64,000 nt of DNA from Gammaproteobacteria bacterium. Lineage in GTDB: Bacteria; Pseudomonadota; Gammaproteobacteria; UBA6429; Thiohalophilaceae. Each line of letters opens with the position of its first letter. Positions within the stretch are counted from its first letter, which is position 1. Below, in pieces: positions 3,124 to 15,992 of the stretch. The stretch is from assembly GCA_016194635.1 (NCBI GenBank), contig JACQBC010000030.1:124001-188000 (forward strand), read 5' to 3'. A program made the translations under genes and the position numbers. A model generated the notes under the pieces. The model made no database searches and was not told the DNA's origin. It saw nothing but the letters and a program-made list of their open reading frames with translations.

Positions 3124-6100
3124 TTACTTCTTTTTGGCGGTACGGCGGATCCGCGCGGCCAAGCGGCGGGCGAGATCACCAAACAATTCAGTCTGGGTAG
3201 GATGGGGGTGGATCGCCCTGCCCACCTGCTCCAAGGTCATATTGCCGGTCACCATCATCACGGCTTCACCGATCAGGGTGTCGGCATGGTCGGCGAGGAA
3301 ATGCACCCCTAGAACCCGTTGCGTGGCTTTGTCAGCGACCAATTTGATGAGCCCCTGGGTTTCATTAGTCATCATCGCCTTGGCATCGATCGCCAGTGGA
3401 ACCTTGATCTCGACGGCGTCAATGCCCTTGGCCTTGGCCTGTTCCACCGATAATCCGACAAACGCCGCTTGGGGACGGGTAAAGATCACCCCGCTGTCCT
3501 TGTCCTGGTTATAGGTATGGGCTATACCGCCGAGATTAGCCGCGGCAACCCGGCCTTGTTGACCGGCGGTATGCGCGAGCATGTAGCCGCCGATCACATC
3601 GCCCACGGCATAGATATGGGGTACCGACGTCCGGCAATGATTGTCCGCTTTGATGACACCTTTTTCCGTCACCACCCCCGCCTTGTCCAGGTGGAGAGGT
3701 TCCAGTTGCGGGCGTTTGCCCGTGGCCATGATGACATAGTCACAGGCGAAGGTCTTGGCCTTGCCTTGTGCATCGGTGTACACCAGTTTCATCAACCCCG
3801 GTTTGCCCCTGATCTCGGTAATTTTTACCGAGGTTTCGACCGATAGGTGTGGATCTGCATCCAAGATCGCCGCAAGCTGGGTGGCCACTTCGGTTTCTAC
3901 TTCCGCCAAGATGCGGTCCTTCACTTCCAGCAGCAAGACCTTGCTGCCGAAGTCCTGGAAGATCTGCGCCATTTCCACCCCAATGGCGCCGCCACCGATG
4001 ACGCCAATCTTGGCCGGCACATTCTGCAGCGACCAGACCGTATCCGAGGTCAACACGCCGCCGGATTTCAATCCCGCATCGGCGCCTTTAATCGGGGGAA
4101 TAAACGGCGGCGCGCCGGTGGCGATTACCGCCGCGCCAAAGCGGATGTTTTTTACTTTGGCGGCCGTTGTGGATTGCTTCGCGGGGCTGCCGGTAGTCGC
4201 GGCGGGAATAAAACGCGTGTACGGGTCGATCTTGCCTATATCGAGTATTGCAACGCTGTGGGCATCCACAAACTGCGCAAATCCTTGCAACACCTCGATA
4301 CGCACGCCTTTATCGGTTTTTAACGCCATCTCGCCGCGCGTTGTTAACACCTTGCGCCGAGTCTTATCCAATTTAGCCCAATTCAACTTCGGCTTGGTGG
4401 TACCTTCGATCCCCAAATGTTCATCGTGGGCGCGATCACGGATCCGATCCGCCGCTGCACGCCATGCCTTCGATGGGATACACCCACGCCATAGGCATTC
4501 GCCGCCAGGAAACGGCGCATCGTTGATCATGGCCACCTTGAAACCATGCTCCATCAAATCACGCGCGCAATCTTCACCCCCAGGACCACCACCAATAACC
4601 ACCACGTCGTAATCGTATTGGCCTTTTTTTAATTCGACCTCAGGGGATGCTTTGAGGGCAAGGTTTACAGCCGAGGCCGAGCCGTCGAGCCAGGTGGGAT
4701 TTTCTACAAACGATTTAAACACATTCAAAAATTTGGCCGCGTCCGCCCCGTTAACGATACGGTGATCCGCGGTCATGGTCACGGGCATCCCGTACGCCCC
4801 CGAGGTCGATATCGCAAAAATCGCTGAAGTCCCCGGCGATGGAATCGCATCAAAATACGCCACCCCCAACATCCCCATATTCGAGATGGTGAAGGTTGGA
4901 TTGGAATATTCATTGGGCTTTAGGCGGCGCAAGCGCGCGCGATTCACCAAGTCTCGCCAATTGTCATTCAATTCAGTCAGCGAACGGTTCATTACATCGC
5001 GCAACACCGGCACTACCAGTCCCATACCCTCGGTCTCAACGGCCAAACCCACGTCGATTTGCGGGCGTTCGATAATACGATCCTCGTGTTGATAGACCGC
5101 GTTGACCTTGGGATATTTCTGGATCGCCCTCGCCGCGGCCTTGGCGAGGGTGACGGTAAGGGAAAACCCCTTGGCCTTGGAGGCGGCCTGTAGGGCCGTT
5201 GGATCGATATTCACCGTCACCCGGAACAAGGGCATCGACAAGGAAAATTCCATATTGTGCGCCACGGCTTTTTCCATGTTGTCCATGGGTCGGCCTTCAC
5301 CGGGGACTTGATAGATGCGACGGGTCGAGGCGGCTTGTACATGACTGTTGAGTACATCCGCGGCGATAATCACCCCGCCCGGACCGCTGCCTTGGGTAAG
5401 GCTATTCAGATCAATACCGTGCGCGCCGGCCAGTTGCCGCGCATACGGCGTGGCCTTGATGCGGATAGGACGCGGCGCGGGTGTGGCTCCGTGCGGTTGC
5501 GCGGGGATGCGGGTTTTTGGTTTAGCCGTACCCGACGGCTCGGCCTTGAGTGGTACAACGGTTTCGACAGCCTTGGTGGGTAATGCCGAGATTTTCTCGG
5601 AGGTAACCACCGCGCTTGCGGTCGGAACGATATACGCAATAGCCTCCCCCACCGCCACAACGCTGTTCACGGCGGCGATCGGCCCGGAAAGGAATCCATC
5701 CCGAAAGATCTCCACATCCATGATGGCCTTATCGGTTTCAACCTGCGCGACGATATCACCGCGTTTGAGTTCTTCACCAATATTTTTATTCCAACTCACC
5801 AATAACCCTTCGGTCATGGTATCGGATAATTGCGGCATTTTGATCGGGTGTGTGTCTTTGGGAAGGGCCACACTTTGCGCGGCTTCAGCCGTGGGGGTTA
5901 CAGCGGTCGTCGTCGAGGTTACTGGGGTTGCATCACTGTTGTGTACAACCTCATGCGTGGTTGCTACTAAATATCCGATCGCATCGCCCACCAGCACCAC
6001 TGAATTGACCGCGCTTAGTGGACCGGACAAATAACCTTCGCGAAACACCTCCACGTCCATGATCGCCTTGTCGGTTTCAACCGTTGCCACGATCATGCCA

Positions 6101-6201
6101 CGCTCGATGAAATCACCGATATTTTTTTCCCAGCTCACCAGGGTCCCTTCGGTCATGGTGTCAGACAACTGCGGCATTTTGATACTATACGGATCGGCCA
6201 T
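3124..6201 (-). CDS. Fused pyruvate dehydrogenase E2-E3 (dihydrolipoamide acetyltransferase / dihydrolipoamide dehydrogenase)
   Basis: A 1025-residue single reading frame. Lipoyl domains lie at about 5-80 and 118-193, both with ETDKAIMDVE (lipoylated Lys 45 and Lys 158). A peripheral subunit-binding domain is at about 248-284 and the acetyltransferase catalytic domain at about 305-515. A complete flavin disulfide reductase follows at 530-1022, with FAD motif GGGPGG near 537, redox pair C569/C574 in GGECLWRGCIPSK, NAD motif GGGAIG near 736, and dimer-interface motif HPHPTQTE at 998-1005. The transferase motif reads DHRIVNG: His 480 is present but the usual Asp is Asn 484. It follows pdhA and pdhB by 67 bp, so one operon supplies all PDH activities. 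Full E2-E3 fusion is uncommon; E2 and E3 are usually separate chains. Confidence 0.95.
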   Translation of the reverse strand: MADPYSIKMPQLSDTMTEGTLVSWEKNIGDFIERGMIVATVETDKAIMDVEVFREGYLSGPLSAVNSVVLVGDAIGYLVATTHEVVHNSDATPVTSTTTAVTPTAEAAQSVALPKDTHPIKMPQLSDTMTEGLLVSWNKNIGEELKRGDIVAQVETDKAIMDVEIFRDGFLSGPIAAVNSVVAVGEAIAYIVPTASAVVTSEKISALPTKAVETVVPLKAEPSGTAKPKTRIPAQPHGATPAPRPIRIKATPYARQLAGAHGIDLNSLTQGSGPGGVIIAADVLNSHVQAASTRRIYQVPGEGRPMDNMEKAVAHNMEFSLSMPLFRVTVNIDPTALQAASKAKGFSLTVTLAKAAARAIQKYPKVNAVYQHEDRIIERPQIDVGLAVETEGMGLVVPVLRDVMNRSLTELNDNWRDLVNRARLRRLKPNEYSNPTFTISNMGMLGVAYFDAIPSPGTSAIFAISTSGAYGMPVTMTADHRIVNGADAAKFLNVFKSFVENPTWLDGSASAVNLALKASPEVELKKGQYDYDVVVIGGGPGGEDCARDLMEHGFKVAMINDAPFPGGECLWRGCIPSKAWRAAADRIRDRAHDEHLGIEGTTKPKLNWAKLDKTRRKVLTTRGEMALKTDKGVRIEVLQGFAQFVDAHSVAILDIGKIDPYTRFIPAATTGSPAKQSTTAAKVKNIRFGAAVIATGAPPFIPPIKGADAGLKSGGVLTSDTVWSLQNVPAKIGVIGGGAIGVEMAQIFQDFGSKVLLLEVKDRILAEVETEVATQLAAILDADPHLSVETSVKITEIRGKPGLMKLVYTDAQGKAKTFACDYVIMATGKRPQLEPLHLDKAGVVTEKGVIKADNHCRTSVPHIYAVGDVIGGYMLAHTAGQQGRVAAANLGGIAHTYNQDKDSGVIFTRPQAAFVGLSVEQAKAKGIDAVEIKVPLAIDAKAMMTNETQGLIKLVADKATQRVLGVHFLADHADTLIGEAVMMVTGNMTLEQVGRAIHPHPTQTELFGDLARRLAARIRRTAKKK

Positions 6202-6268: not shown

Positions 6269-7249
6269 TTAAATTTTACCCAGTACTTTCAAAGCGCCTT
6301 GATAGACGTCATCTGCGCTGGGAATGGCGGCTTTTTCCAGATGGGCGTTATACGGCACCGGTACATCGGCGGCATGAATCCGCACCGGCTGAGAATCCAA
6401 CGCAAAGAAACAATCTTCGATGATGCCGGTAATAATTTCCGCGCCCACGCCCACCGGCGCTTCGTCTTCCTCGGCCACCACCACCCGATGGGTTTTTTCG
6501 ATCGAACGGCGGATGGTTTCGCGATCAATGGGTTTTAGGGCACGCAGGTCCAACACTTCAGCACTGACTCCGTCTTTTTCGAGGCGTTGGGCGGCTTCCA
6601 AACACAAATGCACACTGAAGTTGTAACCGATCAAGGTAATGTCTTCGCCCTTACGCACGATCTCGGCACCTTCCAGCGGCCGGAAGAATTCACCCTCGGG
6701 CACGTCTTCTTTGAGGTTGTACATCCGTTCGTGTTCAATGATCACCACCGGATCATTGCAACGCACCGCCGACTTCAGCATGCCGTAGGCATCAATCGGT
6801 CCACGCGGCGTCACCACCCGTAATCCCGATGTGCTCATGAACATCCGCGCCAGGCGTGCCGAGTGTTGCGCGGCCAATTGATGGGCGGTGCCCCCGGGGG
6901 TGCGAATGACTAATGGACAATGCACCCGTCCACCCGACATATAACGGATCTTGGCCGCCGCGTTAACAATCGTGTCCAAGGCCAACAAGGCAAAATTGAT
7001 CGACATGATTTCGATAATCGGCCGCATCCCCACCATCGAAGCTCCTATGCCTATGCCGGTATAGGAATTTTCCGAGATCGGTGTGTCGATCACCCGTTCG
7101 GCGCCGTATTTATCGTATAAACCGGAGGTGGCCTTGTAGGTCCCCCCCGCCACACCGATGTCTTCACCCATCGCGATGACCAGCGGATCATTTGCCATTT
7201 CTTCATCGTGAGCACGTCGAATAGCTTCCCAATAAGCGAGCACGGCCAT
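6269..7249 (-). CDS. pdhB: Pyruvate dehydrogenase E1 component, beta subunit
   Basis: A 326-residue E1-beta of the alpha2beta2 type, the usual length. It has the transketolase-type pyrimidine-binding domain (MGEDIGVAGGTYKAT near 28, TPISENSYTGIGIGASM near 56) and a C-terminal transketolase domain (VLDLRALKPID near 235, EEDEAPVGVG near 258). With pdhA it decarboxylates pyruvate and transfers the acetyl group to the lipoyl domains of the E2-E3 protein. It lies 10 bp after pdhA on the minus strand. Confidence 0.95.
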   Translation of the reverse strand: MAVLAYWEAIRRAHDEEMANDPLVIAMGEDIGVAGGTYKATSGLYDKYGAERVIDTPISENSYTGIGIGASMVGMRPIIEIMSINFALLALDTIVNAAAKIRYMSGGRVHCPLVIRTPGGTAHQLAAQHSARLARMFMSTSGLRVVTPRGPIDAYGMLKSAVRCNDPVVIIEHERMYNLKEDVPEGEFFRPLEGAEIVRKGEDITLIGYNFSVHLCLEAAQRLEKDGVSAEVLDLRALKPIDRETIRRSIEKTHRVVVAEEDEAPVGVGAEIITGIIEDCFFALDSQPVRIHAADVPVPYNAHLEKAAIPSADDVYQGALKVLGKI

Positions 7250-7259
7250 AACTTACCTC

Positions 7260-8276
7260 TTAGTATTTATTCTGCAGGGGGCCGATCCAACGCGGGTTCG
7301 GATTATCGTCGAGTACATACTTGGTGAGCTCCGCAACACTGGGTTCGGGGCTCTGCTCGGCAAACTTGATGATGTCAGTTTCGATCTCGTGTTGGATCTC
7401 GTCCTGCATCTTTTTGATATCGGCCTCGGTGACAATACCAGCCTTGATCAAGCGCGCTTTAAAAATATTGATGGGATCGCGTTTCTCCCATTCAGCCTCT
7501 TCTTCCTTAGTACGATACCCTTTAGCATCCGACATCGAGTGACCGCGGAATCGGTAGGTGATAAATTCGATAAAATACGGTTTCTGTTCATTACGCACAT
7601 AATCGACGGCGTCCTTGGCGGCTTTCATCACCACCTCGATATCCATACCGTCATGTTGACTGGCCTTGATGTTATAGCCACAAACGCGTTTGTACTGATC
7701 GCGTACCGCCGTGGAGCGATCGATATGGGTACCGATCGCATACATGTTGTTTTCGCACACGAACAACACCGGTAAATTCCACACCGAGGCCATGTTCATG
7801 GTCTCATGAAAGGTACCTTGATTATTCGCGCCGTCACCTAAAAAACAAATGGCGATTTGTCCGGATTTTTTATGCTTGGCGCCCAAGGCTAAACCCGCTG
7901 CCAACGGGAAGGGCTGCCCCACCAGGGCATAGCCCCCCATAAAATTCGCGGTTGGATCGAAAATATGCATCGAGCCGCCACGGCCGCGCGATGACCCGGT
8001 TTCCTTGCCATACAATTCCGCCATCACTTCACGCGGCGGGGTACCGGATTTGATCGCATGAATATGGTCACGATAACCGGTAATGACGTAATCGGCCTTG
8101 TCCCCACCCCCGGTTTTAGCCATTTCCAACACCCCGGTAGCCACCGCTTCTTGCCCTGAATAAAGATGTAAGAATCCGCCAATCTTGCGCTCCATATACG
8201 CCTCAAAACAACGATCTTCAAAGCGGCGATAGAACAGCATTTCACGCAACAGGCGTTTCTTATCTGCATCAGTCAT
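7260..8276 (-). CDS. pdhA: Pyruvate dehydrogenase E1 component, alpha subunit
   Basis: A 338-residue E1-alpha with the thiamine pyrophosphate motif GDGANNQG ending in NN (about residues 146-176). The phosphorylation-loop region YRFRGHSMSDAKGYRTKEE is of the mitochondrial/cyanobacterial heterotetrameric type, unlike the single-chain AceE of enterobacteria. First gene of pdhA-pdhB-E2E3. The 216-bp gap to the divergent gene at 8493 must hold its promoter; I found no convincing -35/-10 pair there. Confidence 0.95.
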   Translation of the reverse strand: MTDADKKRLLREMLFYRRFEDRCFEAYMERKIGGFLHLYSGQEAVATGVLEMAKTGGGDKADYVITGYRDHIHAIKSGTPPREVMAELYGKETGSSRGRGGSMHIFDPTANFMGGYALVGQPFPLAAGLALGAKHKKSGQIAICFLGDGANNQGTFHETMNMASVWNLPVLFVCENNMYAIGTHIDRSTAVRDQYKRVCGYNIKASQHDGMDIEVVMKAAKDAVDYVRNEQKPYFIEFITYRFRGHSMSDAKGYRTKEEEAEWEKRDPINIFKARLIKAGIVTEADIKKMQDEIQHEIETDIIKFAEQSPEPSVAELTKYVLDDNPNPRWIGPLQNKY

Positions 8277-14198: not shown

Positions 14199-15992
14199 TC
14201 ACACCATCGACGGTGTTCTATCGATATTCATCTGTAACCAATATTCCAACAAGGCTAAATGCCAGACCTTGCTACCTTGCAAGCGCGTGAAGTGCTGGTC
14301 CGGCGTCGCCAATAACATATCGACGTGGCGGCGATTAAATAGTCCGCGTTGCTTACACGCCGCCGAATCGAGAATGGCTCGCACGAATCCCAAGAAATCC
14401 TCGCGCACGTATTTTAACGCCGGCACGGGGAAATACCCCTTGGGTCGATCGATCACCCCGTCGGGCACCCGGCCGCGCGCAATACGTTTGAGGATGTGTT
14501 TACCGCCGGAGGCCAATTTTAATTGCGGGGGTAATTGCGCCGCCAATTCTACCAAACGGTAATCTAAAAACGGTACCCGCGCCTCCAAACCAAACGCCAT
14601 GGTCATGTTATCCACCCGTTTAACCGGATCATCAACAATGAGTGTGGTCACATCCATGTGCAAGACACGATCAATAAACGTATCCGCGCGCGGGCTGGCG
14701 AGCAATTGCGCTACACTATGGCGGCTATGATCCTCGCCACGGTAGGCCGCTGTCACGGCATCTAAATATTCAGGATGGTCACGATCAAAATAATGCCGCG
14801 CGAAACGATCCACGTCGCTGCCAACCTGGTCCTGTTGCATACGTGGATACCAGAAATAACCCCCGAAGACTTCATCGGCCCCCTGACCGCTCTGTACCAC
14901 TTTAACCACTCGCGATACTTGTTCGGATAATAAATAAAACGCCACGGCGTCCTGGGCCACCATCGGCTCGGACATGCAGCGCACCGCTTCGGGTAAGCGT
15001 TGCAATACCTGATCGTTGGGAATTAAAAACTTGTGGTGGCGGGTGGGATACCGCGCCACGACTTGGTCTGAGTATTCAAACTCGCTGCCTTTTTCTTCGG
15101 GTTGATCTTCAAACCCAATCGAAAACGTCAGCAGATCCTCCACCCCTGATTCAACCAGCAAGGCCACCAGCAAACTTGAATCCAACCCGCCGGAGAGCAA
15201 TACCCCCACCGGGACATCGGCCACTACCAGGCGTTTATGCACCGCCGCGCGTAATTGCGTTAAAACAAGCTCGATCCATTCCGCTTCGCTACGCGGGGTT
15301 GCCGGACGAAGTGCCGATAGCTCCCAATAGCGGCGCGTGCTGATCGAACCGGTGGCGCTTAAGGTCATTGACGTGCCAGGGGATAATTTGCGGATCCCTT
15401 GCAAAATCGTGCGCGGCGCGGGGATCACCGCGTGTAGACTTAATTGATGATGCAGCGCAATCGGATCGATCTGCGTATCCACCTCTCCCGCGGCCAGCAA
15501 TGCTTGCGGGTTGGAGGCAAAACGAAATTGCCGAGACGATTGAGTATAATACAAGGGTTTAATCCCCAGGCGATCGCGAGCCACAAAGAGGGTTTGTTGA
15601 TGACTGTCCCAGATCACGAAGGCAAACATACCATCTAAATATTCCGGACAACGTTCGCCCCATGTGTGATAGGCCTTGATAATCACTTCGGTATCACCGT
15701 CACTTTGGAACTGATATCCCTGCGCGATGAATTGCGCGCGCAATTGCGGGTAATTATAAATCGCGCCGTTGAAAACAATGGTGAGCCCAAGGGTTGTATC
15801 CACTAACGGTTGATTAGAACGCGCGGTGAGGTCGATCACCGCCAGCCGACGTTGGCCCAATTGCACCGGCCCTTGTTGCCAACGGCCCTCGGCGTCCGGC
15901 CCGCGTCGCGCCAACAACGGCAACATCCGCGCCAACACCTGCCCATCAGGCTGCGCTTGATCAAAACGTAACTCGCCGCAGATTCCGCACAT
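14199..15992 (-). CDS. AsnB-family amidotransferase, probably N-acetylglutaminylglutamine amidotransferase
   Basis: A 597-residue glutamine-dependent amidotransferase. The class II glutaminase domain begins with nucleophile Cys 2 (MCGICGELRFD) and contains VFNGAIYNYP and DGMFAFVIWD. The C-terminal synthetase domain has the PP-loop VLLSGGLDSSLLVALL near residue 266. The opening CGELRFD, GPDAEGRW, and the overall length resemble the amidotransferase that amidates the osmoprotectant dipeptide N-acetylglutaminylglutamine more than classical AsnB. In other genomes that gene sits beside a GNAT/ATP-grasp synthetase and a peptidase; neither is adjacent here. Plain asparagine synthetase is the alternative. 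Confidence 0.8.
   Translation of the reverse strand: MCGICGELRFDQAQPDGQVLARMLPLLARRGPDAEGRWQQGPVQLGQRRLAVIDLTARSNQPLVDTTLGLTIVFNGAIYNYPQLRAQFIAQGYQFQSDGDTEVIIKAYHTWGERCPEYLDGMFAFVIWDSHQQTLFVARDRLGIKPLYYTQSSRQFRFASNPQALLAAGEVDTQIDPIALHHQLSLHAVIPAPRTILQGIRKLSPGTSMTLSATGSISTRRYWELSALRPATPRSEAEWIELVLTQLRAAVHKRLVVADVPVGVLLSGGLDSSLLVALLVESGVEDLLTFSIGFEDQPEEKGSEFEYSDQVVARYPTRHHKFLIPNDQVLQRLPEAVRCMSEPMVAQDAVAFYLLSEQVSRVVKVVQSGQGADEVFGGYFWYPRMQQDQVGSDVDRFARHYFDRDHPEYLDAVTAAYRGEDHSRHSVAQLLASPRADTFIDRVLHMDVTTLIVDDPVKRVDNMTMAFGLEARVPFLDYRLVELAAQLPPQLKLASGGKHILKRIARGRVPDGVIDRPKGYFPVPALKYVREDFLGFVRAILDSAACKQRGLFNRRHVDMLLATPDQHFTRLQGSKVWHLALLEYWLQMNIDRTPSMV

Follow-up and report, generated by a model that had tools for sequence, protein, structure and literature searches.

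Identification of a fused E2-E3 chain

The pyruvate dehydrogenase (PDH) complex of the textbooks holds its dihydrolipoamide dehydrogenase (E3) non-covalently, on a cubic or icosahedral cage built by the acyltransferase (E2). How would such a complex be put together, and what else in the cell would be affected, if E3 were part of the E2 chain itself? The question is raised by a gene at positions 3124-6201 of a 64,000-nucleotide stretch of DNA (the window) from a Gammaproteobacteria bacterium of the family Thiohalophilaceae (GenBank assembly GCA_016194635.1, contig JACQBC010000030.1, positions 124,001 to 188,000). The original prediction read this interval as a full E2-E3 fusion in one uninterrupted frame of 1025 residues, with two lipoyl domains, a subunit-binding domain, an acetyltransferase and a complete lipoamide dehydrogenase. 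Our analysis confirms the fusion. The coordinates are exact and the strand, which had not been given, is minus: a single open reading frame runs for 1025 codons from an ATG, with no internal stop, and its first methionine lines up in all 19 rows of an alignment of the window protein with 18 full-length relatives. A plus-strand protein over the same interval was rejected, as stops break that reading.

Pfam matches, every one above its gathering score, bear out the domain content and give the order lipoyl-lipoyl-peripheral subunit-binding domain (PSBD)-E2 acetyltransferase-complete E3. Two Biotin_lipoyl stretches at residues 5-79 (positions 5965-6189, minus strand, as for all features of the gene) and 119-191 (5629-5847) are followed by E3_binding, the PSBD, at residues 248-284 (5350-5460; PF02817, 46.1 bits against a cut-off of 23.7) and by 2-oxoacid_dh, the E2 core, at 304-503 (4693-5292; PF00198, 161.8 bits against 23). 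The E3 half consists of Pyr_redox_2 at 531-883, with the flavin adenine dinucleotide and nicotinamide adenine dinucleotide (NAD) domains (3553-4611; PF07992, 210.1 bits), and of the dimerisation domain, Pyr_redox_dim, at 904-1008 (3178-3492; PF02852, 98.6 bits). Genes for E1 alpha (7260-8276, minus strand; TIGR03182, 416.2 bits, cut-off 393.85) and E1 beta (6269-7249, minus strand; NF006667, 375.7 bits, cut-off 321) lie upstream on the same strand, with intergenic gaps of 10 and 67 bases; the locus thus has the combination of PDH-type E1 alpha and E1 beta with an E2 that marks a PDH. No E1 catalytic domain was found in the fusion protein by the Pfam scan, which sets it apart from the two-in-one enzymes of the OdhA/KGD type. 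Among the best 25 of 78 NCBIfam matches no model covers both halves, and among the best 60 of 242 PDB matches no solved chain spans them.

By its parts the complex is a PDH and should work like one, and it very probably consists of three polypeptides (E1 alpha, E1 beta and the E2-E3 chain) instead of four. E1 would decarboxylate pyruvate and acetylate the lipoyl arms, the adjoining E2 core would hand the acetyl group to coenzyme A, and the E3 that terminates this chain would re-oxidise the lipoyl arm. Because of its place at the end of the E2 chain, E3 would be covalently held, one per E2, leaving the PSBD free for E1. The 1:1 stoichiometry of E2 and E3 that the original prediction saw as forced by the fusion is plausible on the same ground, namely that one chain carries both.

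Catalytic residues of the two halves

Residues were compared in an alignment of 73 fused proteins, made up of the window protein and 72 further ones, hand-picked for spread from the remaining 109 complete frames (see below). Lys158, Arg255, Ser440, His480, Asn484, Cys569, Cys574, His1000 and Glu1005 are invariant across all 73 rows. Lys158 is the lipoyl lysine of the second lipoyl domain; its counterpart in the first, Lys45, is found in all 60 rows that have letters at this position, the remaining 13 being gapped. The PF00198 score and the catalytic His480 identify the middle part of the chain as an E2 acyltransferase. The usual E2 motif, HRxxDG, is altered, however, in that its Asp is replaced by Asn484 throughout. 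The titles of the Azotobacter E2p entries 1dpb, 1dpc and 1dpd name Ser558, His610 and Asn614, with the Asn four residues from the His, the same spacing as in the fusion; judging by these titles, an E2p with Asn can apparently be active.

The E3 half combines Pyr_redox_2 and Pyr_redox_dim with the redox disulfide pair Cys569/Cys574 and the pair His1000/Glu1005. It scores 363.4 bits against TIGR01350, below the Lpd equivalog cut-off of 408.8, which counts against the assignment, and yet this is the best-scoring NCBI model. A related flavoprotein with another task, for instance a MerA- or transhydrogenase-like one, would fit the shortfall, the MerA match of 289.2 bits and the unusual surround of the active site, which reads ECLWRGC in the fused E3s and TCLNVGC in common E3s. 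Such an identity is nonetheless very unlikely, given the top rank of Lpd, the invariant Cys-x4-Cys, His1000 and Glu1005, closest solved structures that are themselves E3s, and a genome offering no alternative E3 candidate for PDH or for glycine cleavage. The half is thus taken as a putative E3 by its residues, by context and by exclusion, and not by the TIGR01350 cut-off.

Distribution of the fusion

Forty genomes of the window's order were searched. A full-length match was obtained in 19, the window's own included, and the 18 relatives align with the window protein end to end at 70-79% identity. One more genome (G002) has a complete frame with a single lipoyl domain; the fusion is cut or in pieces in nine (G003, G004, G017, G020, G023, G025, G029, G030 and G035), G009 has a stretch of 38 residues only, and ten (G007, G008, G010-G015, G034 and G036) gave no match. 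The last of these, G036, is 100% complete and was found to hold a single E2 of 2-oxoglutarate dehydrogenase (OGDH)-type look, while its genus mates G033 and G035 carry the fusion; a patchy loss of PDH is possible. A collection of named genomes yielded 442 pattern matches, of which 360 encode a relative. The best 80 relatives were kept, and E2 and E3 sequence lies within one frame at 80 of 80 loci. Most come from metagenome-assembled genomes labelled Gammaproteobacteria, Proteobacteria or Chromatiales; named carriers are Thiohalophilus thiocyanatoxydans DSM 16326, which is an isolate, Acidiferrobacter, Thiohalobacter and Muproteobacteria. Two loci labelled outside these groups (L059, Desulfobacteraceae; L069, Spirochaetia) are suspected to be mislabelled.

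A complete E2 core and E3 are present in 110 of 119 distinct fused frames, the window's counted. Six of the other nine run off a contig end, one (L166) is a second, truncated copy of the window gene, one (L106) has an E3 match that begins at profile position 37, and in one (L198) the E3 is split over two frames. This last locus (G070:C120) lies near a contig end in a bin that is 86% complete; its two frames overlap, indicating a frameshift, real or not. Two lipoyl domains are encoded in 92 of the 110 complete frames, one in 17 and none in a single frame cut at its start. Where the flanking sequence is long enough, E1 beta lies upstream of the fused frame in 107 of 111 cases and E1 alpha in 52 of 55; the four misses of E1 beta may be due to the distance limits used, at least two of them having over-long open frames. 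An assembly or frameshift artefact joining two genes has nothing in its favour at the window gene, the split E3 of L198 being at another locus. With end-to-end relatives at the identities given above, 80 of 80 loci in one frame and 110 complete frames from many assemblies, including that of the T. thiocyanatoxydans isolate, the probability of such an artefact is negligible, and chance or assembly error can be taken as excluded.

The limited clade expected by the original prediction is not supported. At a threshold of E <= 1e-120, with partial matches counted, 79 of the 369 genomes in a class sample carry a match, as do 57 of its 274 genera. In a phylum sample, 3 of 397 genomes matched, the window's own among them and all of the same class, the share of other classes among the 397 not being stated. 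A profile made from the E3 part scored at least 744 bits in 78 of 370 class genomes, with the next best E3, a standalone protein, at 362; beyond the 78, genome G272 has two E3-profile pieces of 453-460 bits. Seventy-three of the 78 matches lie in frames of at least 786 residues and were taken as fused by length. Three of the five shorter frames (G336, G185 and G390) still extend into the E2 core, that of G023 is split by a contig end, and the fifth, in G789, has 442 residues. No standalone member of the fused E3 type was seen in this profile search of 370 class genomes (the 442-residue frame being unassigned), and the type appears to exist only within the fusion. A candidate for a convergent fusion, on an Azospirillum plasmid (H1 and H10, two of ten matches listed from a search that covered 5000 records), seemed continuous at first but was rejected; E2 and E3 are encoded there by separate, nearly touching frames.

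A candidate sole E3 and the glycine cleavage system

The window's genome (99.07% complete) contains one E2 core only, the fused one, and hence no separate E2 for OGDH. Its 21 Pyr_redox_2 places resolve into two proteins with Pyr_redox_dim, the fusion and a MerA (G000:C37; L161 6787-8259, minus strand) scoring 565.6 bits against a cut-off of 454.45. The original prediction had proposed to check that no separate lpdA serves the operon; none was found in this 99%-complete genome, MerA being the only other protein with Pyr_redox_dim. A frame near the merA gene resembles a MerR-type regulator, as read from its translation.

Glycine cleavage requires an E3, and GcvT, GcvH and GcvPA all score above their cut-offs in the window's genome. 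In a genome of the same genus (G006), which also has GcvH, the fusion is the single Pyr_redox_dim protein. Four further genomes (G001, G024, G031 and G032) have GcvH in every case, and the seven Pyr_redox_dim proteins that they have besides the fusion all score above cut-offs as glutathione reductases or mercury reductases. The fused E3 is therefore the sole dihydrolipoamide dehydrogenase candidate in six of the seven genomes classified. The seventh, G023, is the exception and counts as contrary evidence: it has one further Lpd-like protein, of 369.3 bits, which is likewise under the cut-off. With six assemblies in agreement, an lpd gene hidden in an assembly gap is unlikely. Some genomes of the order (G037 and G038 among them) have a separate E2 with its own adjoining E3, in what looks like an OGDH operon.

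With no other dihydrolipoamide dehydrogenase found and with GcvT, GcvH and GcvPA encoded, the tethered E3 probably re-oxidises GcvH as well. Service to GcvH would also be accounted for by a free E3, produced either by cutting the fused chain after its synthesis or from an internal start. The linker between the halves is variable and is modelled with low confidence, and in 25 of 73 rows the Trp that closes the E2 core (see below) has a Met directly after it. This Met is not conserved, however (the window protein has Leu), no common cleavage motif was noticed among the linkers when inspected by eye, and the E3 type stays fused across the sampled lineages, so that a free form of E3 seems improbable. 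The tethered E3 remains the likely partner of GcvH.

Four standalone E3-like proteins (L169, L170, L181 and L182) share a CLFEGC active site and the sequence AIHPHPT near the C-terminus. They score 286-319 bits against the fused-E3 profile, other standalone E3s in the comparison reaching 137-232 in one piece, and they come from genomes that carry the fusion (G023, G021, G004 and G035).

The subunit-binding domain

The original prediction also held that the fusion makes E3 binding by the PSBD unnecessary. This is plausible for an E3 that is covalently attached; the domain itself, however, is strongly kept and must still have a task, as it would be idle if it only held E3. The invariant Arg255 lines up with a residue of the Bacillus stearothermophilus domain that we take to be Arg135, and the position corresponding to what is presumably the second functional arginine of that domain, Arg139, is occupied by Gly, Ala, Ser or Thr in all but one of the 73 rows. 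In complexes with a heterotetrameric E1, PSBDs bind E1, and the domain has most likely been retained for this purpose here. On the side of E3, the PSBD contacts in the B. stearothermophilus protein are presumably Asp344 and Glu431. The Asp is kept in 58 of 73 fused E3s and the Glu in none, its site being occupied by Ser, Ala, Thr, Gly or Gln. Against a specific loss, the Glu431 site is also other than Glu in four of ten standalone E3s encoded beside an E2 (Glu in six), a count made on 10 of 17 standalones after leaving out three that are glutathione-reductase-like and the four with CLFEGC. That fused E3s have lost the ability to bind the PSBD is weakly supported by this comparison.

The end of the E2 core and the assembly of the complex

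E2 is active only as a trimer and E3 only as a dimer, so that one chain containing both must link trimers through dimers. Canonical E2 trimers are joined by a hydrophobic C-terminal 3-10 helix (H7) lodged in a pocket formed by H2, H7 and H4 of the neighbour, according to the relevant part of PMC9681731. In the window protein the free C-terminus is replaced by Trp-Leu-Asp and a linker. The Trp (Trp504, positions 4690-4692; 73 of 73 rows) closes the E2 core in every one of the 110 complete frames, at the place of the hydrophobic knob of canonical chains, and is followed by Leu, Met, Ile or Val in 72 of 73 rows. Of the 232 positions of the PF00198 profile, the match reaches 227-228 in the fused cores of the order (all 27 uncut ones) and 231-232 in the standalone E2s (all 18); the count was made from 47 rows, setting aside an OdhA-like fragment (G004:C201), which ends at 225, and a core cut by its contig (G030). 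Compared with standalone E2s of the same order, fused cores are shorter by 7-8 residues in the H2 region and, in the hairpin that precedes the catalytic His, by about 12 (21 fused cores hand-picked from the 110 against 10 standalones, with the OdhA-like L180 set aside). Set against solved E2p and E2b cores, the fused cores show gaps at the same places, some of them smaller.

The shorter H2, the shorter hairpin and the invariant Trp point tentatively to a complex whose E2 trimers would be held together through E3 dimers rather than by knob and socket. Precedent for a hexamer made from a trimer-dimer fusion is provided by OdhA, an E2o-E1o fusion in which the cage-interior hairpin is replaced and E2 trimers and E1 dimers make up a homohexamer (as described in the part of PMC10415282 devoted to it). 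We give an even chance at best to an assembly in which E2 trimers would be bridged by E3 dimers, without a knob-and-socket cage.

Several observations weigh against such an assembly. The ten standalone E2s look mostly OGDH-type by reading, and part of the difference may be one between E2p and E2o. Shortness in these regions is also seen in an unfused E2, that of Thermoplasma, albeit with smaller gaps, so it need not mean fusion. The models are of uneven quality: that of the full-chain monomer has a mean predicted local distance difference test (pLDDT) score of 84.8, with residues 508-517 below 50, and a predicted template modelling score of 0.56, and the means of five E2-core models range from 88.1 for the best to 71.3 for the lowest. 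The structural alignment of the E2-core model with canonical cores, moreover, extends to their very last residues, and a turn of three residues is predicted at Thr503-Leu505. A small Trp-Leu knob may thus remain, and on the model the knob would be reduced and tethered rather than plainly absent.

These features would suit an ordinary cubic 24-mer core with Trp504-Leu505 as its small knob and with the E3 dimers placed on their linkers over the twofold edges, the tethering of E3 being the only change. The modelled E2 fold matches cubic and icosahedral cores alike (Z about 25-28, up to 28.2 for 9j1w_A with 204 residues aligned at 1.9 A), and the hydrophobic residue after the Trp and the turn at the level of the canonical C-terminus are as expected of a knob. 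The linkers of the fused frames point both ways. By one uniform measure they span 7-37 residues in the 110 complete frames. In 48 frames of the group that includes the window's family they have 14-37 residues, which agrees with a closed core (in the window protein the linker occupies residues 507-528, positions 4618-4683), whereas in 60 of 62 frames of another group they have 10 or fewer, with little room to exit from a closed cage. The shortened H2 socket and the loss of the profile end in every uncut core also tell against it. We consider the cubic core a serious possibility, though somewhat short of an even chance.

History of the two halves

Trees were built first from all 110 complete frames and second from 52 hand-picked ones. 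In the E2-core tree the window's family groups with Acidiferrobacter- and Muproteobacteria-type fusions (support 100); in the E3 tree it groups with the other large fusion group. Approximately unbiased (AU) tests were made on the set of 52 minus L190, L191, L193, L159 and L160, which are mostly long branches. With the E3 data one common clade was not rejected (p 0.098); with the E2 data the E3 grouping was rejected (p 5e-9). At most, these results hint that fused genes may have exchanged their E2 halves. Set against 17 standalones, the E3 parts of all 110 complete frames come together in a single group (support 0.943); the corresponding support for E2 is low, at 0.221. A single fusion event for E3 would be the simplest reading.

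Comparison with known systems

The closest relation is to PDH complexes with a heterotetrameric E1, of the mitochondrial and Gram-positive layout, which share E1 alpha, E1 beta, the lipoyl-PSBD-acetyltransferase E2 and the E3 domains; there, however, E3 is a separate protein bound by the PSBD, and here it is the C-terminal part of E2. An E3 preceded by an additional part in one chain is known from the gonococcal enzyme (PDB 5u25) and from Neisseria P64K (1ojt). This part, which we take to be a lipoyl domain, is too short for an E2 catalytic core (5u25 has 602 residues, and its match starts at residue 124). The actinobacterial OdhA/KGD proteins (PDB 8p5t, 8p5v, 8p5r and 2xt6) resemble the fusion in joining a trimeric acyltransferase to a dimeric partner and in an altered interior hairpin of E2, but their partner is the E1 of OGDH and not E3; besides, OdhA takes its lipoyl arm in trans, as stated in the section of PMC10415282 concerned, whereas the fusion has lipoyl domains and a PSBD of its own. 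A contig-end fragment in a bin of the window's order (L180 634-2175, plus strand; G004:C201) matches the two-in-one oxoglutarate dehydrogenase model NF008907 with 628 bits, where 878 are required for the whole protein, and may be a contamination. Actinobacterial AceF/DlaT, an E2p found as trimers, shares the fold (6zzi, Z 25.7) and departs from knob and socket at the E2 C-terminus, as the fusion may do, its trimer-trimer contact being lost through a C-terminal insertion (from the passages on E2p in PMC10415282 and PMC9681731). The ends themselves differ: a three-residue insertion near a free C-terminus in AceF/DlaT, and a Trp, a linker and a whole E3 in the fusion.

No description of an E2-E3 fusion was found in searches of the open-access literature, most subscription journals lying outside this scope. 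In those portions of a nuclear magnetic resonance review (PMC6270654) that treat the E2-E3 subcomplex and its interface, neither the word fusion nor the word fused is used. The fused layout is absent from the solved structures listed, and is probably already visible in public protein databases. An old report on the PDH genes of Thiobacillus ferrooxidans may exist.

Covalent E2-E3 chains that are common among free-living bacteria, including at least one isolate, would provide a natural test of how far the number and position of E3 limit the cycle, of whether a cage is needed at all, and of how one E3 serves both PDH and glycine cleavage when unable to leave the complex. A bolder reading, which we consider less likely than not, is that much of the Gammaproteobacteria has a PDH without the classical E2 cage, its E2 trimers cross-linked by E3 dimers into a closed hexamer, a 12-mer or a network, a solution separate from that of OdhA, and that in lineages like the window's the tethered E3 is the only dihydrolipoamide dehydrogenase. 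If true, the glycine cleavage system would be in obligate contact with the PDH complex. This consequence and the putatively remodelled contact between E2 trimers both go beyond what the original prediction had claimed.

Neighbouring genes and other observations

Downstream of the fusion gene lie genes for a protein with MotY_N and OmpA domains and for ArgG, both unrelated to the complex. Farther along the window, positions 14199-15992 (minus strand) encode an N-acetylglutaminylglutamine amidotransferase (TIGR03104, 931 bits, cut-off 570), presumably a compatible-solute enzyme. On another contig of the same genome (G000:C36; L162 4947-9724, minus strand), DsrK and a member of the DsrC/TusE family score over their cut-offs beside an NAD(P)-binding protein that we take to be DsrL, which suggests that the host is a sulfur oxidiser with a reverse Dsr pathway.

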